Assembly: GCA_015179045.1 (NCBI GenBank)
Contig: WHUZ01000087.1
Location: 186,001-250,000, forward strand
DNA: 64,000 nt
Direction of reading: 5' to 3'
Source: Kalaharituber pfeilii
Lineage: Eukaryota; Ascomycota; Pezizomycetes; Pezizales; Pezizaceae
The notes beneath the pieces were generated by a model. It ran no database searches. It was given only the letters and a program-made list of their open reading frames with translations, and had not been told where the DNA came from. Below are positions 1,855 to 55,415 of this stretch, piece by piece. Every line of letters starts with the position of its first letter. The first letter of the stretch is position 1. The translations under genes and the position numbers were made by a program.

Positions 1855-4800
1855 ATGGACGCCTTCACAATCTCGACCGGAATTGCCGGCTTGCTCTCAT
1901 TTGCTCTCGAGATCACAAAGATTCTAACCGAATACACCAACCAAGTCCAATCTGCCCCGAAGGATGCTCAAACATTGCTAGTGGAGATCAATGCTTTGAG
2001 TCATGTTCTTCAACAGCTAACGGCATTTCTGAAAAAGGAAGACCGGAAGGGGATTTTTCAACCCACTTCAATCCTATGCAATGTCATTGGTATCTGCAAG
2101 GGCAAAATCGAACATTTATATTCAACCCTTGCCAAATTTCGGTCCGGAGGTTTCAAAGACCGACTCAGGTGGCCTTTTCATAAGCAAGAATACCTTGAGG
2201 TTACCTCAACCTTACATAATTGTGCCCAAATAATCGAATTTTCGCTTACCATTGCGAATTGGTAAGCTTTATAGTATAAACTATTCTAAATCTAACTAAT
2301 ATTTAATAGTGAATTACTTTCAAAAACCTCCGAAGAAGTAATGATGGCACTATCAGAGCGAAAAGAGAAGATCGACTCTCTGCTGCCATTATTGGATGCC
2401 TCCACCGCAGCAGCTGCTGAGATGAAGAAAATGAGCGCCAATATAGAAGAGGTTTTGAGCTTTGTATCGAAAGTTGATAAGTTAGCAATGGAGCTGCAGG
2501 AAATTAAGAGTGGGGTTCAGATTATACAGCAAAATATGGATGGTATGGAGTTTATAAATCTCTTTTGTTACTTGTTTGAATTTATGTGCATGTGCTAACT
2601 TCCGGCTTCTTCCCCTCAGCGGAGAACATAGAGAAACTTCTTGCCTGGTTGTCACCACTTGAGCCACAAAAGCGACATCAGGATGTCAAGAACAGCAGAC
2701 TAGAGAATACAGGAAACTGGATTCTCCAGAGTGACGAATTTCAAAGATGGTTAAAAGGCCAACAAAACAGTGAAAGCAATCAGGTTCTGGGCTGCTATGG
2801 TGAGCCAGGAGTCGGAAAGACCATTATTACGTAAGTATACATACTATTTCTACATCAGCGACTTTAATACTAAAGGAATATATAAAGCTCAATTGTTATC
2901 GACTACATCTCTGCCAATCCAATAGGACAGCAAATGAGTGATGTATATCTATACTGTGACTATCGAGACCGAAAAGAACAGAATTTGGTACACATTATTG
3001 GCAGTTTTGTCAAACAATTAGTCTTGCAGTTTTTATCCTCTGGAACTCAGTTACCTCAGTCAATTCACAATTACTTCAAATCCGCCAACGAGAGGAAAGA
3101 AAGTTTAGCTCTTGACAAAGCACTTTTGATGCTGAAACATCTTTGTGCAGAGCTGGATAAAATCTTCATTCTACTTGACGCACTTGATGAGTTACAGGAC
3201 CAGACAAGATTGGATTTTCTCAAGGCAGTAAATGAGATTTTGCATTCACAGAGTTCCAGTTCGAAAAACCAATCCACAAACCCGAATGTGCATTTATTCT
3301 TTACCGCACGTCCACATATTCAAGACCAGGTTAATCGTTGCCTGTGTAATGCTGGTACGTTGAGAATAGTAGCTCAAGAGGAAGATATTCAAGCATACAT
3401 CAACTACCGCATTGACAGAGACACCATCGACAACGGCGAAGATGCCATGAATAGTGAGCTCAAAAACGAAATACTGAAGCTGCTACCGACGAAAGCAGAG
3501 GGAATGTATGTTCAGTTCCAAAGCGTTACATACCTTGTATAAACATATCTAAACTTTGGTATCTAGGTTCTTGCTCTCGGTCTTGCACATCGACATGATC
3601 TTAGATGAGGTGACTGTGGCTATGAGAAGAAATGCTCTACACAGCTTACCTCTGGGTCTTCATACAGCATATGATGGAACCATACTGAGGATGCGGGACT
3701 CACAGAGTCAATCCCGATACAACCTAGGCATAAGAGCGCTCATGTGGACATACCTAGCTGAGCGACCATTGAAGGTCATAGAGCTCTGCCATGCACTCTC
3801 AGTAAATGATGGGGATAAGAGTCTGGATCGCAACAACATTCCCTCTGCAAACATAATACTGCGCTGTTGCTGTGGGCTGGTGACTATAGATGATGAAACG
3901 TCAACAGTTCGTCTGGTACACTACACCCTTCAGGAGTATTTCAAATCCCACGATGAGAAATACTTTCCAACTGGCCATAACCAGATTGCAAGGACCTGTA
4001 TTATCTACCTGGACTTCTCTGAACTAACTACGTACCATTGGACAGAACATGAGAACTGGTCAGGCACCTTCTATTGTTCAGAAGATGCGCTAACGGACGA
4101 CTACGCTTTGTTTGAGTACGCATCTTCTCAATGGGGCCATCATGCACGAAAGCAGTGTGATGAAACTACTTGCAATCTTGCTGTTGCCATGCTTCAACGT
4201 GAATGCTGCCCCGCCCTTATGGAACTGGATTGCGACTTCCATGATTGGAGAATGAAATGCAGATTATCAAGCTTGTCTGCTGTTGCTTCGTTCGGAGTCG
4301 AGAGCATCTTCCGCGCTCTACTGCAGATTTCGGATCCGAATGAGGACGGTAGCTGCGGCGGCACGGCGTTGCTCTACGCTGCAGCACAGGGCCACGAAGC
4401 TATAGTCCGCTTGTTGCTTGAGCGAGCTGATGTTGACGTCAATATAGGGGTAAGCGACAGTGGAACCCCATTGTCGTGTGCCGCCTTAAACGGCCATGAG
4501 GCGATAGTCCGCTTATTGCTTGAGCGAGCTGATGTGGACGTCAATATGGAGGGAGACTACCATGGAACCCCATTGTGGTGTGCAGCCTCAAGCGGCCATG
4601 AGGTGATAGTCCGCTTATTGCTTGAGCGAGCTGATGTGGACGTCAATATGAAGGGAGGCTACCGTGGAGCCCCATTGGGGTATGCAGCCTTTGAAGGCCA
4701 TGAGGCGATAGTCCGCTTATTGCTTGAGCGAGCTGATGTGGACGTCAATATGAAGGAAGAATATGATGGAACCCCATTGTGGGGTGCAGCCTCTAACGGC

Positions 4801-5359
4801 CATGAAGCGATAGTCCGCTTATTGCTTGAGCGAGCTGATGTGGACGTCAATATGATAGGAAGATACAATGAAACCCCATTGTCTGGTGCAGCCTTCCACG
4901 GCCATGAGGCGATAGTCAGATTATTGCTTGAGCGAGCTGATGTGGACGTCAATATGAGGGGAGAGTACGGTAAAACCCCACTGTGGTATGGTGTTGGGTG
5001 CAGCCTCAAAGGGCCATGAGGCAATAGTCCGCTTATTGCTTGAGCAAGCTGATGTGAACGTCAATAAAACAGGATCTGACGGTGAAACCCCATCGATGGG
5101 TGCAACCTTAAATGGCCATGAGGCGATAGTCCGCTTGTTGCTCGAACGACCAGACCTTGACATCAACTTCCCGGACGAATTTGGCGAGACACCTCTCTCT
5201 ATAGCAATTGACCAACAATACCTCCCAATAATTAAGTTGCTCCGTGATCGAGGTGCACAGTTAGCCCCCTCGCCGACCACATCTTCCGTTAGTCAGAAGC
5301 GAAAACTGAGCGTTAATGCCGACCAGGTGTCCCATAGGAGGTCGAAATCGCCTCGCTAG
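1855..5359 (+). CDS. NACHT-ankyrin NLR-like protein with frameshift in the repeat domain
   Basis: STAND/NLR-like protein, a family linked in fungi to non-self recognition and programmed cell death. Proposed exons: 1855-2261, 2310-2542, 2620-2830, 2888-3505 and 3567 onward. The introns are 48-77 bp with GTAAGC/GTATGG/GTAAGT/GTATGT donors and CTAAC-like branch sites, and all phases agree. Residues 1-210 match the fungal N-terminal STAND domain (HeLo-like). The NACHT P-loop GEPGVGKT is near residue 274 and Walker B ILLDALDEL near 378. A winged-helix-like VHYTLQEYF lies near 607, and ankyrin repeats start near 757. The frame ends at 5019 (973 aa) because a 10-bp insertion near 4985 shifts it. The other frame continues two more repeats and a basic tail to 5359. 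It may be a truncated allele. No promoter element was recognised. Confidence 0.85.
4366..5225 (+). repeat. Eight near-identical 102-bp ankyrin repeats
   Basis: The anchor GGCCAYGAG starts at 4390, 4492, 4594, 4696, 4798, 4900, 5012 and 5114. Spacing is exactly 102 bp (34 codons) except 4900 to 5012, which is 112 bp. Each unit encodes the ankyrin core GHEAIVRLLLERADVDVN with very few changes; variable codons cluster in the loop after it. Such uniformity implies recent amplification or gene conversion. Confidence 0.95.
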
Positions 5360-7126: not shown

Positions 7127-9570
7127 TTTTTTTTTTTTTTTTTTTTTTTTTATATCAGTACTCGCATGGCGCCCTAAGGGCTATGGCGAGGTATTCAGTT
7201 ACATAGGAAATAAAAGGAAATAAGATAATTAACATGTAGATGCCCACGGCTCTCTCTGGTGGTGTGGGTGATGAAAAACCAGCAAAGGAAAATACATTTT
7301 GAGTCCCACAGCTCTCGCTAGTAGTGTGGGTAGTGCCAAAGTCAGCATTTTTTTTTTTTTTTTTTTTTTTTTTTATATCATTACTCGCTTGCCGCCCTAT
7401 GGGCTATGGCGAGGGCCTTATTTAACAAGGAGTGAAAACAAACAAAAAGGAAACAACTAGACACATGTGGTACCCGCGGTGATCCTACGTAATGCGGGAG
7501 AAAAGATAACTAAGTACATGTGGCACTCGCGGTGCTCGTGAGTGATGCGGGTGGAAAGGGCCAGTCTGTCCATCCTATTTCCGTCCCCTGTCCCGTTCGT
7601 ACTGGTCCGCTTTTAACCAACGTCCTCCAAGTCTCACTCTCCCCACCTCGATCGGCTTCTCCAGGTATACCACCACCGAACTGGTCTTCTTCTCTTCTTC
7701 GACCAGTATTGTCTTCCTTATGAGCCAGCGAATCCCTACCGTCTTTCCTAACTTGTTGCTTGCTTCCAGCCATTTCCGGACCTTGCCCAACTCCTTTCTT
7801 AGGGCAATGCCGTGTACGACGATGCCGTGTGCGGTGGTGGAGGCATCGGGGGTGGCTGTGGAAGTTGCGGATGATGTCCTAGGGGGCCGGGGAGGGGCGC
7901 TGGAGTTTTTTGTGGGGCCTGGGGAGGGATCGGGGGTCTGTGGGCTGGTGGGGGGTTGGGGGTTTTTCCCCTTGAGGTGGTTTGGAAGGCTGTTTCTTGA
8001 CTCGGCAGCCTTTGTCTCTTCGGGGTGGGGGGGGGGGGGTGGTGTCACAGTCTCGGGGGCCCCTCAGTGTTGGGTGCCGTCTTCGGATGTGGAGAGGGTC
8101 CCGCTGTAGCGGCTATCTTCCCCGCCTCTTTGTCATTGAGCTGTCGCTTCAGGGCGTAAGGGACCTGGGGAGATGGCGCCTTCCCTTTGCGTTTCTTGTT
8201 GGGCCTTTCCGGTGTTGGTGATGAGCTGGACCCCGATGGCTGCGGTGGCTGTGGAGGTGGGGGGGGCCCCTGTCGGGGGTGTGTCTACCGGAGGCGTCTC
8301 CATCCACGTGATGGGGCTGAACCCCAATTTCTGTGGCGGTGGTGGTGGTGGTGGCATGATTGGTCTTCCTACTTCCGTCCTCTGCCCCAATCATACTGTT
8401 CCACTCGCAACTATCGTCCTCCGAGCCTCATTTTCCCGACCTCCGTAGTCTTCTCCAAGTAGACTACCGCTGAACTTGTCCTTTTTCCCTCGCCAATCAG
8501 TGTGTCCTTCTTCCTCAGCCAACGGATCCCGGTCGTCTAACCTAAATCCTTGTTGTCAGACTCCAACCATCTCCGGACCTTCCCTAAGTCCTTCCTCAGG
8601 GCTCTTCCGTGTATGACGATGCCGGCTTTGGAGGTAGTGGTGGCATCGGGGGTGGATGGTGGGGGGGGGCTTGGTCTTTTGTGGGCGGGGGAGAGGGGGG
8701 GGGGGGGGTTCTGGGTTTTTGGGTGGTCGCGGAGCCTGGGGTGGGCTCGGGGTTCAATGTTTTGGGTGGGGTGGGGGTGCCAGCATGGGTGCCGGCGGTG
8801 TGTGGGGTCCCAACCGTTGGCGCGGTGGCGATCCTCCTTATCGTCTAACCTGCGCTTGAATGCATATGGGTCCTGAGCAGACGCAGCTTTTCCCTTGCGC
8901 TTCCTGCTCTGGGTCGTGACCTCCGGTGTGGTCGCAGTCGCCATACGTGGCTCTCCGAGTGTGTGGTGACCGTTGTGCTGAAGCCTAATGCTTTGGGGGT
9001 ATGTCTGTCTTCCGAGGAACTGGTGGGCTCCACCGTGTCGACGGTGAAGAGTGGGCTGAGGCCTAGGACTCCGGGGGGTTGAGAGCGGCCGGTGGGAGGG
9101 GCTCGGCGGCTGGTGGGGGAGATGGGTCGGCAAGCCAGTCTGGGAGGGGGTGGTTTGGCCCTCCTACGTATACCATTATCGTGGTGCCCCCATTAAAACG
9201 TATCCATAGGCATGATCCTTTCATTGGGGCACGGGGGCTGCTTGTCCTGAATTTCCACAGTGTGGCGAGCACCAGACCCCATGAGACGGCCGCATCTAGC
9301 AGCGTCTCGGTCAGGGTCTCCTAGTCTGGTATCTGGAAACTCGCGCCAGTCTTTGGAGGAAGGGGGATGGTGGTCCTCCATCGCGGGTGGAAGGGGTGGC
9401 GGGGGGGAGCTGGTCCTCAGCTTCTTCTTGCCTTTGGGCATTTGTGGTGGGTGGGTGGTGGTTCGGCCCCCTATCGGGTCTTGGCGTGTTGGCGACGGAG
9501 CGGCGACTTCCTCAAACTTCGCCCCACGGGGGAAACTTGGGGGAGTGGGTATTTGGGAATGAAAATTAGA
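7127..9570 (-). mobile_element. LINE A, ORF1-only type, split by a sister copy
   Basis: The 3' part is 7127-7347: poly-A tail, A hairpin and a 3' UTR with two CCCAC...GTGGG hairpins. ORF1 resumes at about 8351 and runs to about 9560. On the minus strand it starts with a basic/Pro-rich N-terminus (MPKGKKKLRTSS near 9441), has a SRKRKGKAASAQDPYAFKRR block, a Pro-rich linker and the HGRALRKDLGKVRRWLES block, and ends QYDWGRGRK-stop at about 8367. Frames are broken in several places. No endonuclease, RT or RNase H is present although the 3' tail is identical to that of RT-bearing copies. ORF1 of such LINEs is assumed to be a nucleic-acid-binding gag-like protein. Confidence 0.65.
7348..8350 (-). 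mobile_element. LINE A, ORF1-only copy nested in the 3' UTR of another
   Basis: Poly-T at 7348 is followed by the reverse-complement A hairpin, a 3' UTR with two tandem CCCGC...GCGGG hairpins (7455-7555) and the ORF1 stop at 7575. ORF1 is open from 8048 to 7575 (157 aa): a Pro-rich linker, then VVHGIALRKELGKVRKWLEA, TSSVVVYLEK and a VRLGGRWLKADQYERDRGRK terminus. It continues frameshifted to about 8340. It sits just downstream of the ORF1 stop of the enclosing copy. TSDs are not clear (perhaps 3-4 bp). G/C homopolymers are long throughout. Confidence 0.65.
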
Positions 9571-10011: not shown

Positions 10012-10731
10012 GGTGATGGGGAGGGTGGAGGGGGAGTTGCTGATATTGACAGATTCGAGGCATGCGATCAGGAGAATGAAGGCGATAGCGAGAGGAGACC
10101 CAACACACGACGGCGCGACGAACAAGTTGAGAAAAGCCTGGGAGGAGAGGGTGGGGAGGGGGGACATAGACGTGGCGATTATGTGGGTGAAGGCTCATGT
10201 AGGCATAGAGGGGAACGAAGAGGCAGACAGGGTGGCGGGTTGGGGGACAGCACTGCAATATAAGGCGGAGGTGGTCACAGAGGCGGGGCAGAGACAGAGG
10301 CTCAGGAGAGAGAGAGCGGAAGAGAGGAACAGGTTAGGCTTGGCGTACAGACCTTTAGAAAGGGTAGGCAGGGAAGTTAGCCGACTAGCGGGGCTCCTGG
10401 GAGGGAAGGGGCTGAGGGCGTGGAGGTGGAAGATCGGGGAAGGGGATGGGCCAGAATGCAGATGGTGTGGAGAAGCTGAGGAGACGACCGCCCATTTACT
10501 GGGTGAGTGTAGGTTATGGAAGAGGAGGTGGCCAGGGGGTGAAGAGCATGTGAGGAACCCTCCGAAGAGGAGGGAAGGGGAGAGAGACAGGCTAGATACT
10601 CTTATAGAAATGTTGGGGGAGTGAGGCGGGGGGAGGAGGGGGGAGCAAGGAGGGGATATATTGTTCTAACTCTCTCGAATGTAACTAGCACAACATCGCC
10701 ATAGCCCATAGGGCGGCAAGCGATTAAATGA

Positions 10732-11754: not shown

Positions 11755-13338
11755 TTTTTTTTTTTTTTTTTTTTTCATTACTCGCATGCCGCCTGTAAGG
11801 CTATGGCGAGGTTTCCTAACTACTATCCTAACTACCTAATAACGTGAATAGAACTAAAATGAAAGGAAAAATTCAGAATTGTGCCCTGAGTCTTCCCCTG
11901 CCCATTGTAATGCCTTGGCTACCTCTGCGATTTCTTCGCGCCCCTTCGGCTGTCTCAAGCTGTCCGCCCCGTCCGGCAACCTGTTTTTCCATGGTTTGCA
12001 GTCGTTGGTTATATGCGCAAGGTTCTCCGGAGCTTTCCCGCACCATTTGTATTCGGGAGAATCCACCTTCCCTATTCTATATCTCTATTTCTTTAGTCCT
12101 TTGTTTCCTAGGATGCCCGCCAGTGTTGCCACCAGCCGACGATTGCCTAATTCCTGTAATGGTCGATAGGATAGTCCTAGGCGTTTTCTCTCCTCCGCTC
12201 GGAGTGCCTTGCTTTCCTGCCTTATCCCCGCTTCGGTCACTAACTCGTCTTCGCACTGCAATGCCGTGCCGATCTTGGCAGCTCTGTCTGCTTCCGTATT
12301 TCCCTTCACGTCCTTGTGTCCTTTGACCCACGTGACCGCGAGATCGAGGTTGCCCTTTGCTACTCTCCTCTCCCACTGTTCCCGGACTGCCTGCGATGCT
12401 CCATCCACCGTTGGGTCCCCTCTGGCTATCTTTTGTAATCTGGATATCGCCGTGCGGGAGTCCGTGACGATTAGGATTTCCCCTTCATGGCGTAGGGCGT
12501 GGCTGATGGCTATCATCTCTCCATCGTTCACCGTGCTCTGTCTACCTAGGTAGTACGCTTGGTCTGCCTGTTGTCTGTATGTTCCTGCCCCTGTGGAATT
12601 GTCTATTCGGCTCCCGTCTGTATACACGCTCTCCCACCCTTCCTCCTCCTCTTTCTGGATAGCTTCCTCCCATTCTTCCTTGCTCAAGTCGCTCGGTTGA
12701 AATGGGAATGTGTGTAGGGGTAAGGGTTCATGGTGTGCCAGTGATCCCCGAAGGTATCTTGTATCGGGTTGCGGGTCCCTAACCTCCTCCTGCCAGAATC
12801 TCAGTGTTCGAGCCTCCACTCTGTCTCTTTCTCCGCTCACAAATGTCTCTACTGACTCCAGATTGGCTAGCCCTTCCACTACGTCCCTCCGTGTCCCCCA
12901 AGGTGCTCCAGTGATGTCTCTGGCGACGTTGTATTGCCATCCTTCTAATTGCTTGATTTTCTTCCCCACCGGTGCCCCCTTGGCGTAGCTCGCCCAAGCC
13001 CAGCTACCATATGTAGCGATATTTCTGGCTATGCTAGTGTAGAGTTGTCTTCTCTTGCTCGGTGGTATGCGCGTGAGTCGGGATGCTATCTTCCACGCCG
13101 CCTTCCCCAGGTGTAGCCGCCTTTCAAAGTGGTCGTCGTATTTGAGTTCCCAGTCAACGTTTAATCCGACCAGCCTGTAGCTTTCCCCTTTGGTTCCGAT
13201 TATTAACGACTCGGACTTCCGCGGGTCCAGTTCAAAGCCTTCCTCTTTTGCGTCTTTGATTAATTGTCGTCTATGGCTGTCTATATCTTTCCTCAGTTGT
13301 GTCATGGATCGGTGTGATATCACGCTGTGAAAATCGTC
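11755..13338 (-). mobile_element. LINE A, 5'-truncated at the RT YVDD motif
   Basis: Flanked by a 13-bp TSD GAATTTGGCATTC at 11742-11754 and 13339-13351. The 3' hairpin (CTCGCCATAGCC, AGGCGGCATGCGAG) and poly-A are at 11755-11815. The 5' truncation falls inside the RT active-site codons: the element begins DDFHSVISHRS. Confidence 0.9.
11860..13338 (-). CDS. LINE A ORF2 fragment: RT thumb/connection, RNase H, zinc knuckle
   Basis: The longest open frame is 13368-12085 (427 codons; the first ten are host sequence). From the remains of YVDD it reads through the RT C-terminus (LDPRKSESLIIGT, KRRQLYTSIARNIATYGSW) into RNase H with all four acidic positions visible: YTDGSR, NDGEMIAISHA, VTDSRTAIS and GNTEADRAA. 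A stop after GNKGLKK near 12085 breaks it. The rest (about 12084-11860) holds the knuckle, whose first Cys is Tyr (EYKWCGKAPENLAHITNDC). RT palm motifs A and B are absent, so it is a dead copy, but it preserves the RNase H domain well. Confidence 0.85.
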
Positions 13339-13431
13339 GAATTTGGCATTCGGCACCCTTATGATCAATCCTATCCCGCTGCCGTCGGGTTCACTTCACA
13401 TTTGTAGTTCACATTTGTAGTACCACTGAGA

Positions 13432-13467
13432 CTCGCCATAGCCTAAAAAGGCGGCACGCGAGTAATG

Positions 13468-13498
<31 letters not shown>
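13432..13498 (+). mobile_element. Hairpin-only retroposon, family A
   Basis: A 36-nt core CTCGCCATAGCC...AGGCGGCACGCGAGTAATG followed by about 31 A. Perfect 12-bp TSD GTACCACTGAGA at 13420-13431 and 13499-13510. Nothing else of the LINE is present; the insertion begins exactly at the outer stem. Confidence 0.9.
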
Positions 13499-13501
<3 letters not shown>

Positions 13502-13510
13502 CCACTGAGA

Positions 13511-17701: not shown

Positions 17702-17842
17702 TCGGAGGGTACATTAGGTGCCCAATGTGTATACGTAGCGAGTGGGGTAGATGGGTAGTTGCTTAACCTGACCCGGACATATAGGTCCCTGCCATAGGCT
17801 GGTAGTCTGTATGCGGGTTTACGTGACTCAAAAAAAGAACAA
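17702..17842 (+). mobile_element. LINE B 3' UTR and tail
   Basis: The sequence ends CCCTGCCATAGGCTGG, TAGTCTGTATGCGGG, TTTACGTGACTC followed by an A-rich tail. The preceding 90 bp (GTAGATGGGTAGTTGC, GACATATAGGTCCCTG) match the 3' UTR of the LINE B copy near 33520. It splits the LINE A host. The 5' boundary is approximate. Confidence 0.6.
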
Positions 17843-17892: not shown

Positions 17893-18852
17893 ATGGGCAT
17901 CCCCGGTACTGACGATCAGATAGTCAGGATTTTCATAGATCGCAACTTCCTGTCACACGACGCAGGGCCTCTAAGTACTGCGAGGAAACCCAAGAGTCTA
18001 CTCATAGGGAGAGAGGAAGCAAGGACAGCCATAGACCGAGCCCTTGCACGAACCAAGTCTAGGTCAGCACCAGGGCCAGACGGAATGCAGTATGGCCTTC
18101 TAAAGACTATAAGAAAGACCACCTTATGGACCGCACTGAGGGAGGAGATTGTCGATTATATTAATGGGAACTACCAGTTTGCCAGGGGGTTCGATGTGGT
18201 TATGATACTGAAGAAAGGGAGACCAAGCAATGAACCGGGAAGATGGAGACCGATTACACTGCTGAATACGGTAGCCAAAATCGGACAGAAGGTTGTCGCT
18301 GGGTTAGTACAAAGGAAAGACGACCTCTTTCGAGACACACAACTAGGCAGCCGCCCTCATCGCGGAGCCGAAGACTTACAGCGACAGACACTAAAAGAAA
18401 TAGACAAACGCCTTGAAGGAGGAGAGTGGACAGCAATAGTCGGAGACGACATAAAGTCCGCCTTTAACTTCACCCGGAGGGAAAAAGTGGTCACTAGAAT
18501 CGAAAAGGTCAACCCAGACCTAGCAGCATTCGTCGAAGGCTTCATGCAACCAAACGACTTCAGGATAACATGGAACGGGAAGGTCAGGGGCATGGGAAGG
18601 ATGACAGATGGAACTCCCCAAGGCTCACCCCTATCTCCAGTACTATTCCTGGTAGGAGTAGCCCCGGTGGCGGAAAAGGCTGAGGAGCGACAATTCACCC
18701 GGTCATACGTCGATGACTTTCACTGCGTGATATCTCACAGGTCCATGAGACAATTAAGAAGAAATATCATCACCCACCGACAAAAGCTGGAAGCAGAAGC
18801 TAACCAAGAGGGCTTGAGTTGGATCCTAAGAAGGCTGAAACACTCATCATAG
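17893..18852 (+). CDS. LINE A ORF2, reverse transcriptase domain
   Basis: 319 codons covering most of RT. Motifs: RSAPGPDGM (residues 57-65), RWRPITLLNTVAKI (117-130), palm motif A GDDIKSAFN (184-192), motif B GTPQGSPLSP (240-249) and catalytic motif C YVDD (272-275). All three catalytic Asp are present. In LINEs this enzyme copies the element RNA at a nicked target (target-primed reverse transcription), recognising the RNA 3' end, here presumably the conserved hairpin. The endonuclease domain is missing because of 5' truncation. A one-base shift at a G-run near 18814 moves the reading into the next frame. The start codon is just the first Met after truncation. Confidence 0.9.
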   Translation: MGIPGTDDQIVRIFIDRNFLSHDAGPLSTARKPKSLLIGREEARTAIDRALARTKSRSAPGPDGMQYGLLKTIRKTTLWTALREEIVDYINGNYQFARGFDVVMILKKGRPSNEPGRWRPITLLNTVAKIGQKVVAGLVQRKDDLFRDTQLGSRPHRGAEDLQRQTLKEIDKRLEGGEWTAIVGDDIKSAFNFTRREKVVTRIEKVNPDLAAFVEGFMQPNDFRITWNGKVRGMGRMTDGTPQGSPLSPVLFLVGVAPVAEKAEERQFTRSYVDDFHCVISHRSMRQLRRNIITHRQKLEAEANQEGLSWILRRLKHSS

Positions 18853-20185
18853 GCGTCAAGAGCCCGAGCTACCGACTGGTCGGACTACAAGTCGACTGGG
18901 AGATGAAATTCAAGGACCACTTCGGGAAACGTCTCAACCTAGGGAAAGCAGCCTGGAGGGTAGCGACTCGCCTAACACAACTCCCCCCAACCAAGAGAAG
19001 ACAACTGTATACCAGCATAGCCAGAAACATCGCCACATATGGAAGCTGGGCCTGGGTGGATTACGCCAAAGGCTCCCCATCCGAACACAAAATGAGACAA
19101 CTAGAAAGATGGCAGTACACGGTGGCCAGGGACATCTCCGGAGCACCCTGGGGCACCAGGCGAGACATCGTTGAAGGCATTACCAATCTGGAGAGTATCC
19201 AAACATTTGTGGCTGGTGAGCAGGACAGAGTAGAAGCCCGCACTCTACGCTTCGAACGCGAACCTCTCCGGAAACCTCAGCCAGACACACGATACCTGAG
19301 AGGGTCACTTATCCACCGAGATCCCCTTCCCATACACATCCACTCTTTCCACCCACGCGATCTGACGTCAAATGAATGGGAAAACATAATTGGCAGAGAA
19401 GAGGACGAAGGCTGGATTAGCATATACACAGACGGCAGCCGCATGAACGGCATCACAGGTGCAGGGGTAGTACAACAGGACACAGACACAGACTCCTCCT
19501 TCTACCTCGGACATAGGAGCACGGTGAATGACGGCGAGCTGATAGCTATAAGCCACGCGATGGACACCCCCGGGGAACTTCTGATACTCACGGACTCCAG
19601 GACAGCAATAGCCAAACTGCAAAGCATAGCCAGAGGTGACCCAACCCCGACGGTTCAGCACAAGCGGTCAGGGAGAAATGGGAAGCCAGAACCGCAAACG
19701 GAGATCATGACCTGGCCATCCTTTGGATCAAAGCACACGTCGGCATCTCAGGCAACACCAAAGCAGATAAGGCTGCGAAGGTCGGCACCGCCCTTCAATA
19801 CCAGGACGAAATCGTCACCGAGGCGGGCATACGACAACAAATGAGAGCCTACAGAGCAGAGGAGAGAGATCGCCTGAAGCTCGCGTATCCACCACTACAA
19901 ACGCTAGGGAGAAGACATCTGACGGCCACCTTGGCAGGCATACTAGGAAATAAGGGGCTCAGGGAATGGAGGTACAAGATAGGGAAGGCAGACTCGCCCG
20001 AATGTCGATGGTGCGGACGGGCACCGGAAAACCTGAGCCACATCACGACGGCCTGCTCGGCATGGAAGAAGAGAATACCTGGAGGATTAGAGGACCTGAA
20101 AACACCGCCGAAGACAAAGGGGAAGGAAGAGGGGGAGGAAGGGGACCTTTTGACGGAAATCTTGACATGGGCGGGGCAGGACTAG
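18819..20185 (+). CDS. LINE A ORF2 continuation: connection, RNase H, zinc knuckle
   Basis: This continues ORF2 after the frame break: LDPKKAETLIIG, LYTSIARNIATYGSWAW, then RNase H (YTDGSRMNG, NDGELIAISHAM, LTDSRTAIAKL). A second frame break at a C-run near 19651 puts the last RNase H block (IKAHVGISGNTKADKAAK) in another frame. A third open frame (19841-20185) gives the tether RAEERDRLKLAYPPLQ and the zinc knuckle CRWCGRAPENLSHITTAC. Each break is restored by a single homopolymer base, so the copy could be young with sequencing errors, or recently dead. Confidence 0.85.
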
Positions 20186-20347
20186 CGGAGTTATCATGCC
20201 AGTGTTACTATAATATTTCCTATTTTCTCACCTATATGTACTTACTTAAACCTCGCCATAGCCTTTCAGGCGGCATGCGAGTAATGATATTAAAAAAAAA
20301 AAAAAAAAATCATTTCCTGTTATCCCCTTGTGCCCTTTGACCCGCAA

Positions 20348-21923: not shown

Positions 21924-21947
21924 GTCGTCGTCTCCTCCTCTTCCCCG

Positions 21948-22413
21948 GGAACACCGCCACCTCCCCACCAACCAATCCTGATGCCACCACCAAAGGAAAA
22001 GCCGGCATCGTGATACACGGGATCGCCCTACGGAAGGACCTAGGGAAGGTTAGACAATGGTTGGAAGCCGCGAATAAGGAATTAGGGAAGATATCGGGGA
22101 TTCGCTGGCTGAAGAAGAGGACCACGCTGGTTGAGGAAGGGAAGAAAACCAGCTCGGCGGTAGTTTACTTGGAAAAGGAGACGGATGTTGAGAGGGTGAG
22201 GCTCGGGGGACGTTGGCTTAGATCGGTCCGGTATGAGTCGGAGAGGGGACGGAAGTAGAACATACCGGGACTGCCACCCGCATCATGGAGAAGTTTCGCG
22301 GGCACTACATGTAGTTAGTTGACTTCTTTGTTTTTGTTTTCTCTTTTAATAAAGACCTCGCCATAGCCCATTGGGCGGCCTGCGAGTATTGATATAAAAA
22401 AAAAAAAAAAAAA
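21948..22413 (+). mobile_element. LINE A, ORF1-only type
   Basis: 466 bp with TSD TCTTCCCCG at 21939-21947 and 22414-22422. It carries the last part of ORF1, a 3' UTR with an ACCCGCATCATGG...CGCGGGCACTACATG hairpin, and the A hairpin CCTCGCCATAGCCCATTGGGC plus poly-A. No ORF2 sequence lies between the ORF1 stop and the tail. Confidence 0.9.
22010..22258 (+). CDS. LINE A ORF1 C-terminal domain (partial)
   Basis: 82 codons: IHGIALRKDLGKVRQWLEA, NKELGKISGIRWLKKRTTL, EEGKKTSSAVVYLEK and VRLGGRWLRSVRYESERGRK-stop. The same domain recurs at 6300-6560, 7575-7850, 8367-8640, 36061-36276 and 52690-52900, so it is the conserved part of this ORF. The fold mixes predicted helix and strand with a basic end, which suits an RNA-binding ORF1 protein, but I recognise no named domain. 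It is the cleanest reading of the domain in the window. The true start is lost by 5' truncation. Confidence 0.7.
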   Translation: MIHGIALRKDLGKVRQWLEAANKELGKISGIRWLKKRTTLVEEGKKTSSAVVYLEKETDVERVRLGGRWLRSVRYESERGRK

Positions 22414-24689: not shown

Positions 24690-25830
24690 ATGCTGACAGT
24701 TAGGCAGTTCAGGTTTACTGGTAGCAGTTGGGTGGTGGCGGTTCAAACGCTATCGTTCAGCGCTTATAGTTCAGTAATAGTAGTATAGTGATTGTGAGTC
24801 AATGGCTGCGGATCAGCAGGAGTGGTTCTGCGGTTGCAGTTCCATAGCAGTCATTCAGCAGCTATAGCTCAGGAATTATAGTTTGGTGGTAACAGGAGTT
24901 TTGGCAGCAACATTTCTGTGGTTACAGAGTTTGGTAGCGACGGTTCAGCTGCTGCAGTTCGATAGTCATCATTTGGTGTTGGAAGTGTGATCATGCTTCA
25001 GTGATTGCAATTCCATAGCTGCAGTTCAGCAGCAGTAGTTCGGCTATAATGGTACGCGTACGGCACTAATGAGTTCGGTTGCAATAGTCTTCCAATGATA
25101 TTCACGATTATGATTCGCCGATGATGATTCCGCAGTGGCAATTCAATAGCTCTGGGTTGATAGAGAGTTCAGCAGCTAAGGTTCGATAACTATTGTTCAC
25201 CTGCGATTAGAGAGCTAATGGTTCCGCACCTATAGCTCCACATAGTATGTTTCAGCGACTGTTCGGCAACTGGTTTGGCCGCCGTTCGGTTGCTGTGATT
25301 TGGCATCCATGGTTCGGCTGCTGTTCAGCAGCTACCATTCGGGAGCTATGGTTTTGCTGCGGTTTAACACCTATGGTTCGACCGTAGTTGTTTGGCAACT
25401 ACGGTTCCATAGCTAGGGTTTGGCTATAGTGTGGCAGCTGCAGTTCAAAACCTACAGTTCTTTTTTTTTTTTTTTTTTTAATATCACATAACCCCGCTTG
25501 TAGCTCTTCGCCATGGCAGGGCAAACCTACAGTTCAGAGGATGTGATTTGTCAGTAGCAGTCCAACAGTGCGGTTGCTCAGCGGCCCTCGTTCGGCACCT
25601 GTAGTTTCGACACGTGCGGTTCGGCATTGGTTCAGTCGCTGAGTTCGAGAGCTGTAGTTCAGCAGCTGCAGCCCCACCACTGCACTTCTACAGCTACAGG
25701 CTCGGCAGCAGTGGTTTGGCAGCTATTTTTCGACATCTGCGCCTCACAGCTATGGCTCTGCTGTAGTTTGGGAGTTAACGTTCAACAGCTTTAGTTTGAC
25801 AGCTGTAGTTCGAAAGCTGCAGCTGAGAGA
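24690..25830. repeat. Degenerate 16-18-bp tandem array (GTTCRGCAGCTRYAG-like)
   Basis: More than 1 kb of diverged units built on GGTTCAGCAGCTATAG / GTTCGGCAGCTGCAG, repeated with drift over the whole interval and interrupted at 25461-25522 by a family B retroposon. There is no coding frame through it. Confidence 0.7.
25461..25522 (-). mobile_element. Hairpin-only retroposon, family B
   Basis: On the minus strand: GCCCTGCCATGGCGAAGAGC, TACAAGCGGGG, TTATGTGATATT and poly-A. Perfect 13-bp TSD AAACCTACAGTTC at 25448-25460 and 25523-25535. Confidence 0.9.
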
Positions 25831-26701: not shown

Positions 26702-26837
26702 TTTTTATTTTGTTATTTTTTTGTCACGTAACCCCGCATACAGGCTGCCAGCCTATGGCAGGGGCCCAGCAATAGCGAGTAGCGATAAGCGGGGTTGTGT
26801 GATATTTAAAAAAACAAAAAAAAAGCCTATGGCAGGG
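26702..26837. mobile_element. Family B retroposon nested inside a family B retroposon
   Basis: The outer copy is minus: poly-T, GTCACGTAACCCCGCATACA, GGCTGCCAGCCTATGGCAGG; its flanking repeat is weak (CCAGAGG). The inner copy is plus, 26764-26823: GCCCAGCAATAGCGAGTAGC, GATAAGCGGGG, TTGTGTGATATTT and A-tail. The inner copy has a perfect 14-bp TSD AGCCTATGGCAGGG at 26750-26763 and 26824-26837, which is itself part of the outer hairpin. Confidence 0.85.
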
Positions 26838-31645: not shown

Positions 31646-31708
31646 TTGTCACTTGCAGCTTTACAGGTGAATATGAGTGGATATCCCCTTCCAGGGTATG
31701 CCCTGACA

Positions 31709-31765
31709 CTCGCCATAGCCCTCAGGGCGGCATGCGAGTACTGATTAAAAAAAAAAAAAAAAAAA
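31709..31765 (+). mobile_element. Hairpin-only retroposon, family A
   Basis: A 38-nt core CTCGCCATAGCCCTCAGGGC...GCGAGTACTGATT and poly-A. Perfect 11-bp TSD ATGCCCTGACA at 31698-31708 and 31766-31776. Confidence 0.9.
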
Positions 31766-31789
31766 ATGCCCTGACAGGGGGGGCTGGAG

Positions 31790-35916: not shown

Positions 35917-36640
35917 TATCAATACTCGCATGCCGCCCTATGGGCTATGGCGAGGGTTTATTAAAACGAAAAGGAACTAAAAACAGCCGATAAGTACATG
36001 TAGTGCCCGCGGTGCTCGTACATGATGCGGGTGAACTGTCAATACGGGATGGGGTGTCCTTCACTTCCGTCCTCTATCCCATTCGTATTGTCCTGCTCGA
36101 AGCCATCTTCCTCCCAGTCTCACCCTGTCTACTTTCGATGCCTCCTCCAAGTACACCACCACCGAGCTTGTCTTTTTTCCCTCCTCTATCAAAGTTGTCT
36201 TCTTCCTCAGCCATCGAATCCCCGTGATCTTTCCTAGGTCCTGGTTGGCTGCCTCCATCCATCGTCGGACGTTCCCGATAGTGGTATATAAAAAATTGGA
36301 TGAAATAACGAAGATAAAGTGAAATAGAGAGATATAAAAGAGTCCTGTCCCCGGTGTCCGTCAATGTCCGTCACTGTTCCATCCATCCCAGCAGTGCCGC
36401 CAGTGGGTCCCCGGCTTCTGACTCCCTGTCCCCTTTGGGATTCAATATCGCGTCGCGGCCCCCGGGCCATTTCTTCTTCTATACCCTGCATCGGTCTAGC
36501 ACGTGGGCCGTTGTCTCCTCCTCTTCTCCGCACCATCTGCATTCTAGACCATCTGCCTTGCCTAGACCGTAACTCCACTGTCAAAGGCCCTTGCCGCCAA
36601 GGAGCCCTGCGAGCGTTTGGCACTGCTGCTACTGGTAATA
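35817..36640 (-). mobile_element. LINE A 3' fragment with nested insertion
   Basis: Tail and hairpin at 35817-35865 (complement: ATCGCCATAGCCCACAGGGC, GGCAGGCGATCAATG). The ORF2 end resumes at about 36291-36640 with zinc knuckle and tether in broken frames. It is interrupted by the ORF1-only element 35891-36276. The host target may be GCTAC near 35810 and 36615. Confidence 0.7.
35891..36276 (-). mobile_element. LINE A, ORF1-only type, with (TA)n tail
   Basis: Perfect 14-bp TSD GATAGTGGTATATA at 35877-35890 and 36277-36290. On the minus strand it has ORF1 C-terminus (WLEAANQDLGKITGIRWL; VRLGGRWLRAGQYEWDRGRK-stop at 36061), the CCCGC hairpin UTR, and the A hairpin CCTCGCCATAGCCCATAGGG ending in A5 and (TA)n instead of pure poly-A. 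Confidence 0.9.
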
Positions 36641-38194: not shown

Positions 38195-38559
38195 TATTAC
38201 TCTGCTTCGTGGCTGAAATCACTTCTGCACACAGTCCAATCAGTCAAAATACGACCCTCAAGTAGACAACTCGCGATTGTATTTCCATCAATGAGCAGAA
38301 AAATAAGAAATTCTGTAGTAATGAGAGTTTTTTATTTTCCCTCACAAAACCCATGGCACTGGAATTTGTTGCTTATAAGGCCAAGTTCAAGCTTATATCG
38401 GAGGTTGCTATAACCCCAGTTGACTCTAGGGAATTGATATCGGACTAGGGTTGACTATTTATGTGGTGCCGTGAGTGGGATCTTATTCACTTCTCACATC
38501 ATTTTTTGACTTAGCTATTCCCTCCAAAAGCTTGCTTCTCCGATCAAAGTTTGGCGGCA

Positions 38560-48704: not shown

Positions 48705-48732
<28 letters not shown>

Positions 48733-48772
48733 TCACATGACCCCGCGTGCAGCTGTTCGCCATGGCAGGGCC
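48705..48772 (-). mobile_element. Hairpin-only retroposon, family B
   Basis: Minus strand: GGCCCTGCCATGGCGAACAG, CTGCACGCGGGG, TCATGTGATT and poly-A. Perfect 11-bp TSD AGCCTAACCTC at 48694-48704 and 48773-48783. Confidence 0.9.
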
Positions 48773-49285: not shown

Positions 49286-49452
49286 CTGCGCTGTCGGAGG
49301 TCAAATCGCATGTCCAAATTTTAACATGGCCATGTAGTAGAGTTGGCCAAAATATTCTTTGATAGAGATGTAGGACGGTCAACCAGACAACGCCCTGAGG
49401 TCAAAGGCCTAGTTCGTTGAAGGCCAATGTGCATTTAAATGCCCTATAAGTA

Positions 49453-49540
49453 TCGCCATAGCCCCTATGGCGGCACGCGATTACTGATATTAAAAAAAAA
49501 AAAAAAAAAAAAAAAATTAGAAATAAAAATTAAAAAACTA
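49453..49540 (+). mobile_element. Hairpin-only retroposon, family A
   Basis: The core TCGCCATAGCCCCTATGG, CGGCACGCGATTACTGATAT is followed by a long A-rich tail (49492-49540). Perfect 11-bp TSD CCCTATAAGTA at 49442-49452 and 49541-49551. Confidence 0.9.
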
Positions 49541-49702
49541 CCCTATAAGTAAAAGCTTATAGGCGTTCTAGTCTTTGTCCATCCGAAAATCATAGAGAGA
49601 AAATCTTATAAAATTTGAGATACAAGTCGTTTCATAGGGACGATATAGATTTCTACATCTGCAAACTCAAACTGCCTACAAGTCCACGTGCCTTCACGCA
49701 CT

Positions 49703-50113: not shown

Positions 50114-50217
50114 GCACTGCAGTCCTATTACTTACTACCTTACTTCTGTAGATTTGTTCGCTTTTGTGACAGGTTCTTTGTAGTGCATTTCTGGCATGGT
50201 AATGGCGTTTCATGTGC

Positions 50218-50277
50218 TTTGTTTTTTTTTTTTTTTATATCATTACTCGCGTGCCGCCCTATGGGCTATGGCGAGGT
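50218..50277 (-). mobile_element. Hairpin-only retroposon, family A
   Basis: Minus strand: ACCTCGCCATAGCCCATAGG, GCGGCACGCGAGTAATGATA, T and poly-A. Perfect 13-bp TSD GCGTTTCATGTGC at 50205-50217 and 50278-50290. Confidence 0.9.
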
Positions 50278-50299
50278 GCGTTTCATGTGCATAGAGACA

Positions 50300-52399: not shown

Positions 52400-52450
52400 A
52401 TGCCCTGCCATGGCGAACAGCCGCATGCGGGGTCACGTGACAAAAAAAAA
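52400..52450 (+). mobile_element. Hairpin-only retroposon, family B
   Basis: ATGCCCTGCCATGGCGAACA, GCCGCATGCGGGG, TCACGTGAC and A10. TSD ATTCACAGCCA at 52389-52399 and 52451-52461; the right copy is shared with the next element. Confidence 0.9.
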
Positions 52451-52462
52451 ATTCACAGCCAC

Positions 52463-53056
52463 GGGGCCCTGGGCGGTGCCCCAAAGCACCTACTGGCATG
52501 AGACTAAGCACCTACAACGCCTTCGGTCGGGACCCCGGCGACCCCCACGGGCAGCACCGCCACCACAGCCGCAACAAAGCCCCCAACCCCGACACCGACA
52601 ACGAGACTCCCGAAACCAATCACGGACTCAAGACCAAGACCAAAGACCAGCAAGCCCCCCGCCTCCTCGCCAAACACCGACGCCACCACATCGACATTCG
52701 GCGTCGTAGTACATGGTATTGCATTGAGGAAAGACTTGGCGAAGGTGCGGAAGTGGCTGGAGTCCGGGAACAAGACACTAGGCACGAAGACTAGCTCGGT
52801 CGTGGTGTACTTGGAGGCAGCGACGGACATAGACAGAGTCAGGCTAGGAGGGAAATTGTTGAGGACAACTCAATACGAGCCAGACAGGAGAGGGAAATAG
52901 GCTGTATTGATTTCATACCCTACCCGCACCATGTACGAGTATCGCGGGAACCACTTGTAGTTAGTTACTGTCGCGATTTTTTCTTTCTTTAATTAACACC
53001 TCGCCATAGCCCATTGGGCGGCATGCGAGTACTGATATAAAAAAAAAAAAAAAAAA
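52463..53056 (+). mobile_element. LINE A, ORF1-only type
   Basis: 594 bp with TSD ATTCACAGCCAC at 52451-52462 and 53057-53068. ORF1 is frame-broken: a Pro/Arg-rich linker, then GVVVHGIALRKDLAKVRKWL, LEAATDIDRVRLGG and QYEPDRRGK-stop at about 52900. The TACCCGCACCATG...CGCGGGAACCAC hairpin UTR and the A hairpin CCTCGCCATAGCCCATTGGG with poly-A follow. Confidence 0.9.
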
Positions 53057-53645: not shown

Positions 53646-53699
53646 TACGCCACTTACTCCACCTCAGTGCGCACCAAGACATGATGGGAAGTAGATCTA

Positions 53700-53764
53700 T
53701 TTTTTTTTTTTTTTTTTTTTTTTTATATCATTAATCGCGTGCCGCCCTAAGGGCTATGGCGATA
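53700..53764 (-). mobile_element. Hairpin-only retroposon, family A
   Basis: Minus strand: TATCGCCATAGCCCTTAGGG, CGGCACGCGATTAATGATAT and poly-A. Perfect 11-bp TSD AAGTAGATCTA at 53689-53699 and 53765-53775. Confidence 0.9.
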
Positions 53765-53993
53765 AAGTAGATCTAGCAGGACGTCTCTCGATCCGATGGA
53801 CAAGGTGTAACACAAGGCTGATCAGAAAGTAGATAATAAGCCAATCGAGTTTCGCATTGGAGATGCGGCTTCAACAGATCGGAAGAAAGGAAGTTAGATC
53901 TTATCGCGTACTCGCTGATTCAGTGCTAATATGACGAAGCAGGGAGAATCTCGGAAGCTATATGCGTAAATGTAGAAATCCAAAAGATCTTCT

Positions 53994-55327: not shown

Positions 55328-55339
55328 GAGCTCGAGCTT

Positions 55340-55403
55340 ACCTTGCCATAGCCTATCAGGCGGCACGCGAGTAATGATATTAAAAAAAAAAAAAAAAAAA
55401 AAA
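55340..55403 (+). mobile_element. Hairpin-only retroposon, family A
   Basis: ACCTTGCCATAGCCTATCAG, GCGGCACGCGAGTAATGATA, TT and poly-A. Perfect 12-bp TSD GAGCTCGAGCTT at 55328-55339 and 55404-55415. Confidence 0.9.
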
Positions 55404-55415
55404 GAGCTCGAGCTT

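Follow-up and report, generated by a model that had tools for sequence, protein, structure and literature searches.

Hairpin-and-poly-A retrocopies with a fixed 5′ end in Kalaharituber pfeilii, probable by-products of LINE retrotransposition

Introduction

LINE copies are normally shortened at scattered points, and the cause of this shortening is unsettled. Truncated LINE members measure 100 to 1,000 bp in the available text of one account (PMC3747384). Such 5′-truncated copies comprise a LINE 3′ end, an A tail and target-site duplications (TSDs) and lack the 5′ part, as do the hairpin-only copies (stubs) described here. However, their ends are scattered, whereas the stubs end at a fixed point at the base of a hairpin.

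Stringent-type LINE-tail SINEs, represented by eel UnaL2 and zebrafish ZfL2, likewise have a LINE 3′ stem-loop as recognition signal, according to the available sections of PMC4176376. These SINEs carry a promoter-bearing head, whereas the stubs consist of the tail hairpin alone. The MGL chimeras of Magnaporthe (MINE: WEIRD-MGL) also derive from a fungal LINE whose reverse-transcription (RT) events fall at sites with predicted hairpins (PMC2104539, in the part available). MINE differs in that, in the same part of PMC2104539, the event is a template switch to other RNAs at GCC*A/U and the LINE parts span 230–5461 nt. Half-LINEs, which retain ORF1 only, have a coding region and the stubs have none; their likeness to the present material lies in ORF1-like frames without RT just upstream of A and B hairpins. 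HAL1-like is taken here to be the name for such ORF1-only elements.

Both truncated LINE copies and SINEs with LINE tails are familiar elements. A search of titles and abstracts in the open-access literature brought up no account of hairpin-only retroposons, in which a retrocopy consists of the recognition hairpin alone, its end fixed and its copy number high; this is not a claim that they are absent from print. To our knowledge, these hairpin-only copies are the shortest retroposons. In the DNA analysed here, a hairpin plus poly-A alone integrates between TSDs, and in two families that differ in their hairpins the copies end at the outermost pair ± 3 nt. Because the stop is sharp across many natural insertions and their hairpin variants, the origin of the 5′ end becomes testable as a choice between loaded RNA and enzyme release. 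The lower size limit for LINE mobilisation is thereby placed at about 36–45 nt of hairpin plus poly-A. Being shorter than most repeat-annotation filters, the stubs would probably escape annotation.

Hairpin-only insertions in the window

The window, the whole stretch of DNA that was analysed, is a 64-kb piece of contig C347 in a genome of 78 Mb and 360 contigs. By Pfam, it codes for a LINE RT and RNase H, a protein with ankyrin repeats and part of a DDE_1 transposase. The first-pass annotation had described six family-A sites, each a hairpin plus poly-A between perfect TSDs of 11–13 nt, and all six are present in the sequence:

13432..13497, + strand: hairpin-only A copy, 36 nt plus 30 A; 13-nt TSDs at 13419-13431 and 13498-13510
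31709..31765, + strand: hairpin-only A copy; 11-nt TSDs at 31698-31708 and 31766-31776
49453..49540, + strand: hairpin-only A copy, its tail A-rich but irregular; 11-nt TSDs at 49442-49452 and 49541-49551
50218..50277, − strand: hairpin-only A copy starting ACCTCGCC; 13-nt TSDs at 50278-50290 and 50205-50217
53700..53764, − strand: hairpin-only A copy closed by an A-U pair (ATCGCC..GCGAT); 11-nt TSDs at 53765-53775 and 53689-53699
55340..55403, + strand: hairpin-only A copy starting ACCTTGCC; 12-nt TSDs at 55328-55339 and 55404-55415

At 49453 the hairpin and the perfect 11-nt TSD stand and the clean tail does not, as an irregular A-rich stretch lies between the poly-A run and the duplication. 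The A hairpin folds into an outer stem of 5 bp and an inner stem of 4 bp. A second family, B, with a 7-bp outer and a 3–4-bp inner stem, is represented in the window by the following copies:

25461..25522, − strand: hairpin-only B copy (GCCCTGCCATGGC...); 13-nt TSDs
48705..48771, − strand: hairpin-only B copy; 12-nt TSDs
52400..52449, + strand: hairpin-only B copy; 12-nt TSDs
26764..26823, + strand: diverged B-like hairpin-only copy; 14-nt TSDs; inserted at the edge of a hairpin of type C

Hairpin-free scan and duplication controls

A de novo scan that assumed no hairpin searched for a poly-A run with a perfect repeat of at least 11 nt, around inserts of up to 400 nt, in 264 kb of DNA (the window and C1:80001-280000, in which positions are given below as C1 local). 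It returned 35 pairs, among which all 23 inserts of 50–77 nt were a hairpin plus poly-A (9 of family A and 14 B or B-like, three of the B inserts having a common duplication and flank and so representing one event). No inserts of 78–125 nt were found in these 264 kb, and ten further inserts were longer LINE 3′ ends or sequence without relation to the hairpins; the remaining two, of 30 and 18 nt, are described below. The copy at 49453 is absent from the scan because of its irregular tail.

When repeats of at least 9 exact nt were accepted, 24 inserts of 50–69 nt were recovered, 23 of them hairpins, versus 0.45 per swapped-flank control run. In the hairpin-anchored analysis, a stem-base duplication (score at least 10) was present in 42 of 133 filtered copies versus 0.11% of 2638 swapped pairs. 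Chance duplications are ruled out by these swap controls.

Truncations within the hairpin are rare, with two cases in the 264 kb. These inserts, at C1 local 6019 and 15602 (TSDs of 14 and 10 nt), start inside an A hairpin. They are 30 and 46 nt long, with starts at the 3′ arms of outer and inner stem; both are possible structure-induced RT stops.

Distribution of 5′ ends

A mismatch and A-tail filter left 133 copies (81 A, 42 B and 10 of a third type, C) and dropped 196 of 329 raw hits, 191 for mismatch or lack of an A tail and 5 as overlaps; at least two of the hits removed, at C1 local 83433 and 68421, look hairpin-only. Family A was divided into 19 hairpin-only copies, 27 long copies and 35 without a class call, and family B into 23, 6 and 13, respectively; 58 of the 133 copies, including all 10 of type C, gave no duplication at score 10, so that the class shares rest on the others, and three of the six long B calls depend on a 10-nt match. 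Two class changes were made by hand: L028 was taken out of the called classes, and one low-complexity duplication was accepted. TSDs range from 10 to 16 nt, and their median of 13 nt in hairpin-only and long copies alike argues for the same machinery behind both.

The truncation point of the stubs does not vary, all lying within 3 nt of the stem base, whereas longer copies of the same families scatter. Among family A copies with a score of at least 11 and ends within 300 nt, 18 of 32 ended no more than 3 nt from the stem base, the other 14 being scattered (uniform null p 1e-21). As the idea had arisen in the window, the count was repeated with the window left out: 12 of 25 ends then fell at the stem base or up to 3 nt from it (p 9e-14 against a uniform null), and the other 13 lay at 51, 67, 75, 102, 111, 114, 156, 161, 173, 225, 267, 274 and 278 nt. 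The sharpness of the 5′ end at the outer stem, first noticed in the six window copies, is thus borne out by the 5′-end plots of the sample both with and without the window: a stem-base peak, then scattered ends from 51 nt upwards. The zone from 11 to 50 nt holds two entries, each with a second duplication at the stem base. At distances above 300 nt, about 2.6 false matches per control run were obtained versus 14 real ones. In family B, 18 copies (16 events) within 300 nt ended at the stem base versus 1 elsewhere.

Apparent ends run from −3 relative to the first stem base to +2 in family A and to +3 in family B; positive offsets arise where a duplication continues into the hairpin through letters in common.

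Ordinary random 5′ truncation, biased to short copies, would find a precedent in LINE copies at large, which are usually truncated at varied positions in the available text of PMC3747384, and longer truncations occur here too. Nevertheless, a stretch of 7 nt holds 18 of the 32 family-A ends and no copy is placed at 11–50 nt only. Random truncation therefore fails to account for the starts, as the first-pass annotation had argued, and the probability left to it is close to negligible.

Relationship to resident LINEs

The window holds three LINE copies that carry the A hairpin at or near the 3′ end, the first with Pfam matches to RVT_1 and RNase_H:

17893..20281, + strand: parent-type LINE; RT frame 17893-18852, RNase H frame 18819-19844, 3′-end A hairpin 20252-20281
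11781..13368, − strand: second LINE copy; RNase H frame 12085-13368, 3′-end A hairpin 11781-11810
10013..10724, + strand: third LINE fragment; RNase H frame 10013-10624, then A hairpin 10695-10724

Across the 264 kb, six of 10 merged RT/RNase H matches have a same-strand A hairpin 292–624 nt downstream. The remaining four comprise one match to a mixed RT/DDE protein, with no hairpin, one fragment with the next kept A hairpin 10 kb away, and two that are followed in the filtered set by a B hairpin, at 820 and 5770 nt; in the 820-nt case, an A hairpin removed by the filter sits between the match and the B hairpin. The 3′ end of the stubs resembles that of the resident LINEs, with the hairpin and a TAATGATATT-like tail common to the RT/RNase H copies. 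Where a copy reaches at least 2 nt past the stem, the letters at −2 and −1 are the usual LINE letters (AC, AT or CC) in 6 of 7 cases; as a control, LINE letters occur in 3 of 10 cases in which those letters belong to the target. The proposed LINE origin of the family-A hairpin is upheld both by the position of A hairpins 3′ of RT/RNase H matches and by these LINE-like extra letters.

The order RT then RNase H, a trait of Tad1-like fungal LINEs, is present, and Tad1-like is used here as a presumptive clade name for the resident LINEs. The nearest named relative of the window RT is from Kalaharituber pfeilii itself (74% identity over 37% of the query), and a search for the RT in plasmids gave no match. 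The genome holds at least 128 RT matches. Several of these have equal scores and frames of 1098 codons, and for this reason the LINEs look recently active.

The first-pass annotation had also suggested a discrete ultra-short SINE-like RNA. A source of this kind would be one or more small polyadenylated RNAs with a start at the stem base, transcribed from separate genes and reverse-transcribed in trans. In family A, the hairpins themselves do not support a single such RNA. The 19 hairpin-only A copies include both closing-pair types and 14 distinct cores, and they form no group distinct from the LINE hairpins (permutation p 0.20, in a test whose long-like rows include copies without a class call, picked by upstream motif). 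A single tiny master RNA for family A was rejected on this core diversity and intermixing. No tRNA was found in the window, and an Rfam search of it gave no match, its one weak hit (RNase_P, 16 bits versus 100) being taken for chance; a tRNA or known RNA family in the window was rejected on these searches. The pol III promoter or small-RNA head of a SINE is absent, and 36–45 nt would be too short for boxes A and B. With so many A source variants and no room for an internal promoter, a SINE source is improbable overall, and it is most plausible for one subtype of family B, considered below.

A TGTA or AATAAA-like motif just upstream of the hairpin marks 21 of 27 long A copies, 2 of 19 hairpin-only A copies and 0 of 6 long B copies, with a background of 13%. 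This motif is read here as part of the poly-A signal. As it is largely missing from the A stubs, self-propagation of the stubs is unlikely. In the window, TGTANNTA or an AATAAA-like motif lies shortly before A hairpins, for example at 7162, 10698 and 20255, and the remaining 3′ UTR differs between copies. We take TGTANNTA to resemble a PUF site or a poly-A efficiency site.

ORF1-like matches were also observed 100–200 nt upstream of A or B hairpins, with no RT between:

window 7587-7922, − strand: ORF1-like match
window 21938-22246, + strand: ORF1-like match
window 36073-36354, − strand: ORF1-like match
window 52616-52894, + strand: ORF1-like match
C1:80001-280000 local 150016-150549, − strand: ORF1-like match

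An ORF1-like frame is also present in two long B copies of the A-type (defined below). A Pfam scan of one ORF1-like protein gave no match. These RT-less loci are apparent half-LINE (ORF1-only) elements that use the same hairpins.

Stem structure in RNA and cDNA

As RNA, the hairpins are only modestly more stable than shuffled sequences (z −1.2 to −2.7 for four A sequences and −1.1 to −1.4 for three B sequences). In family A, the closing pair is C-G in 55 copies, A-U in 25 and a mismatch in 1 (81 copies). In a selection of 30 distinct A sequences, pairing holds in 97% of cells and two of 9 pairs covary; compared with 500 shuffles, three of five measures were reached by none and the other two by 485. 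From the closing-pair counts and the stem covariation, family A copies begin at the outermost covarying pair. Covariation is weak in family B, where 96% of cells pair in 24 selected sequences versus 95% in shuffles. A conserved 3′ hairpin with compensatory changes, a trait of stringent-type LINEs, is accordingly present in A and weak in B.

The end could alternatively be cut in the cDNA, if single-stranded cDNA folded as a hairpin and a 3′ exonuclease trimmed it to the base before joining. The LINE RNase H could bare the cDNA, and the hairpin forms in three of four family A cDNAs, at −6.4 to −7.2 kcal/mol; the fourth, at 55340, has no outer stem as DNA. The B stem relies partly on G-U pairs, and all three real B cDNAs tested are weak (−2.1, −2.8 and −4.9 kcal/mol) and no better than shuffles, 184, 199 and 185 of 200 being at least as good. 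Family B nevertheless has the same end point, and trimming of the cDNA is very improbable. With a covarying A stem, weak B cDNA and both families ending alike, RNA structure rather than DNA structure is favoured as the determinant of the end.

Origin of the fixed 5′ end

The stubs are very probably by-products of LINE retrotransposition with a 5′ end set by an RNA hairpin. The LINE RNA ends in a short hairpin and poly-A, and the LINE protein is proposed to hold it by this hairpin. Decay from the 5′ end would trim this RNA back to the hairpin, which bound LINE protein or structure would shield. In yeast, protein-bound hairpins shield 3′ mRNA fragments from 5′–3′ decay. The protected stub, polyadenylated and accompanied by its own RT, would then be used normally at a nicked target, and copying to its very end would yield about 36–45 nt plus poly-A. 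Having no room for a promoter and, in family A, lacking the usual TGTA/AATAAA-like motif, the stubs are probably dead ends. Zebrafish LINE ORF2 proteins bind their own 3′ stem-loop, as reported in the available sections of PMC4176376.

The main rival places the stop in the enzyme. The RT would start on full-length LINE RNA, copy the tail and the gripped hairpin and drop off, and repair would seal the 5′ junction, somewhat as a polymerase may fail at promoter escape. This would give the same peak without a pre-cut RNA, and the extra 5′ letters look LINE-templated, as though the template reached at least 2 nt past the stem. In addition, the Magnaporthe LINE RT switches templates at specific sites beside predicted hairpins, in the available text of PMC2104539. 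Those sites are, in the same text, GCC*A/U, a motif that here sits inside the 5′ arm and not at the base. Furthermore, once the hairpin had been copied there would be no hairpin structure ahead, and for both families to end so precisely, to about 3 nt, a special release step would be needed. Release of the RT is therefore the less probable account, although one to be taken seriously.

The first-pass annotation had envisaged an RT with a habitual stop at the base of the stem; such a stop fits the ends, but LINE RNA already trimmed to that point, an option the annotation had not named, would fit them equally, and in sequence terms alone trimmed RNA and an RT letting go may both be accommodated. 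A trimmed template is favoured because an RT that had passed the copied hairpin would meet none of it at the base. Uniform trimming would be expected to give similar shares of stubs per source, against which stand 19 hairpin-only versus 27 long copies in A and 23 versus 6 in B. The template-trimming step, taken singly, is accordingly put forward tentatively, with doubt slightly the heavier; the whole explanation, a LINE by-product made from a trimmed, protein-protected template, is the best available and could equally prove right or wrong.

Copies of every length with exact hairpins number 1537 for A and 2522 for B genome-wide. Extrapolated from 8 of 30 A copies in the sampled L loci, rather than counted, about 400 of the 1537 exact A copies would be hairpin-only; a similar extrapolation from 18 of 27 sampled copies gives about 800 of the 1215 exact copies of the G-type of B. 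The broader proposal, that protein-protected mRNA decay stubs are retrotransposed at scale, with more than 1000 hairpin-only copies on extrapolation, and that the hairpin both licenses and delimits the copy, is doubtful.

Source of family B

By the first stem letter, exact B copies include 1215 with G (G-type) and 1152 with A (A-type). CAGGG stands just upstream in 737 of the 1152 A-type copies, as in the sampled long copies. The base upstream of the 1215 G-type copies is A in 139, T in 548, G in 290 and C in 238 (by subtraction), with none dominant and T favoured (45%). In the sample, G-type B comprises 18 hairpin-only copies (16 events), 7 without a class call and 2 nominally long, the last two being one duplicated pair with a 10-nt match.

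It is for G-type B that small RNAs with their own genes are most plausible as a source, as this type gave no credible long copy in the sample, its only nominally long copies being that duplicated pair, and it has no dominant upstream base, versus CAGGG in the A-type. Against such a source, the excess of T upstream may point to a template that was longer or to preferred targets, and among the matches listed a LINE on contig C235 appears to carry a G-type B hairpin at LINE-like spacing:

C235 618589-619512, + strand: RT
C235 619513-620337, + strand: RNase H, open frame of 952 codons
C235 620969-621007, + strand: G-type B hairpin, after the RNase H

Residue 277 and the hairpin are 632 nt apart in C235 versus 603 nt in the window LINE with its A hairpin; by arithmetic, roughly 0.05–0.15 cases of such spacing would arise by chance among the listed places. 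B hairpins were paired with RT and RNase H over the listed places, about 100 per search, in which RT and RNase H were the best-scored candidates. The C235 LINE, which seems to end in a G-type B hairpin, is a likely candidate source of family B and makes a SINE-like source for G-type B less likely. The suggestion that the 41-nt G-type B hairpin is now its own SINE-like element has correspondingly lost ground, and family B is probably a LINE by-product like A.

Same-strand B neighbours at other spacings were the following, together with others at about 1.7 kb on C48 and C90:

C2 447752-448498, − strand: RT, with a B hairpin at 446903, − strand (811 nt)
C2 37227-38216, + strand: RT, with a B hairpin at 38314, + strand (98 nt)
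C8 124587, − strand: RNase H, with a B hairpin at 123367, − strand (1177 nt)

Among the places listed, CAGGG-type B had no LINE partner at the expected spacing. The intermixing test for family B gave p 0.21, with little power from 6 long copies.

Unoccupied sites

The flanks of 41 of the 42 hairpin-only copies were joined (one flank was too short), and the sampled DNA was searched for an empty relative. Eleven passed a loose filter; one of these was a self hit and three were one duplicated event in a repeat array. Clean empty sites were found for B copies at C1 local 88330 (95.6% over 160 nt), 46874 (90% over 152 nt) and 178823 (84% over 89 nt). Among the matches listed, the B copy L029 has a clean empty relative in L024, at 97.7% over 128 nt. 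The empty relatives of family A copies are more distant (L014 and L025, of which L014 is among the matches listed).

Older hairpin copies themselves serve as targets, at the edge or inside, as at window 26764-26823 and in L052, a family A copy whose target is another hairpin copy. A hairpin-only B copy also appears to be nested in the 3′ UTR of a longer B element (C1:80001-280000 local 198830 and 198915), its 14-nt duplication being the host element's own TTTCTTTGTTTGTT.

Genomic setting and other inserts

Hairpins of type C (CTGCCATAGGCT..AGCCTGTAYGCGGGG) lie in the window at 17789, 26729, 31800 and 53997; a duplication was detectable in none of the 10 C copies of the filtered sample. Two further coding features complete the window:

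3556-5019, + strand: ankyrin-repeat gene with near-identical repeat units
344-1087, − strand: DDE_1 transposase fragment

On contigs C1 and C2, the listed exact A copies crowd the first 0.55–1 Mb, with one more near each far end. Among these listed copies, the pattern suggests repeat-rich and repeat-poor compartments on both contigs. At C1:80001-280000 local 26065, the insert between 13-nt duplications is 18 nt long, a T followed by A17, and is possibly a poly-A-only retroposition.
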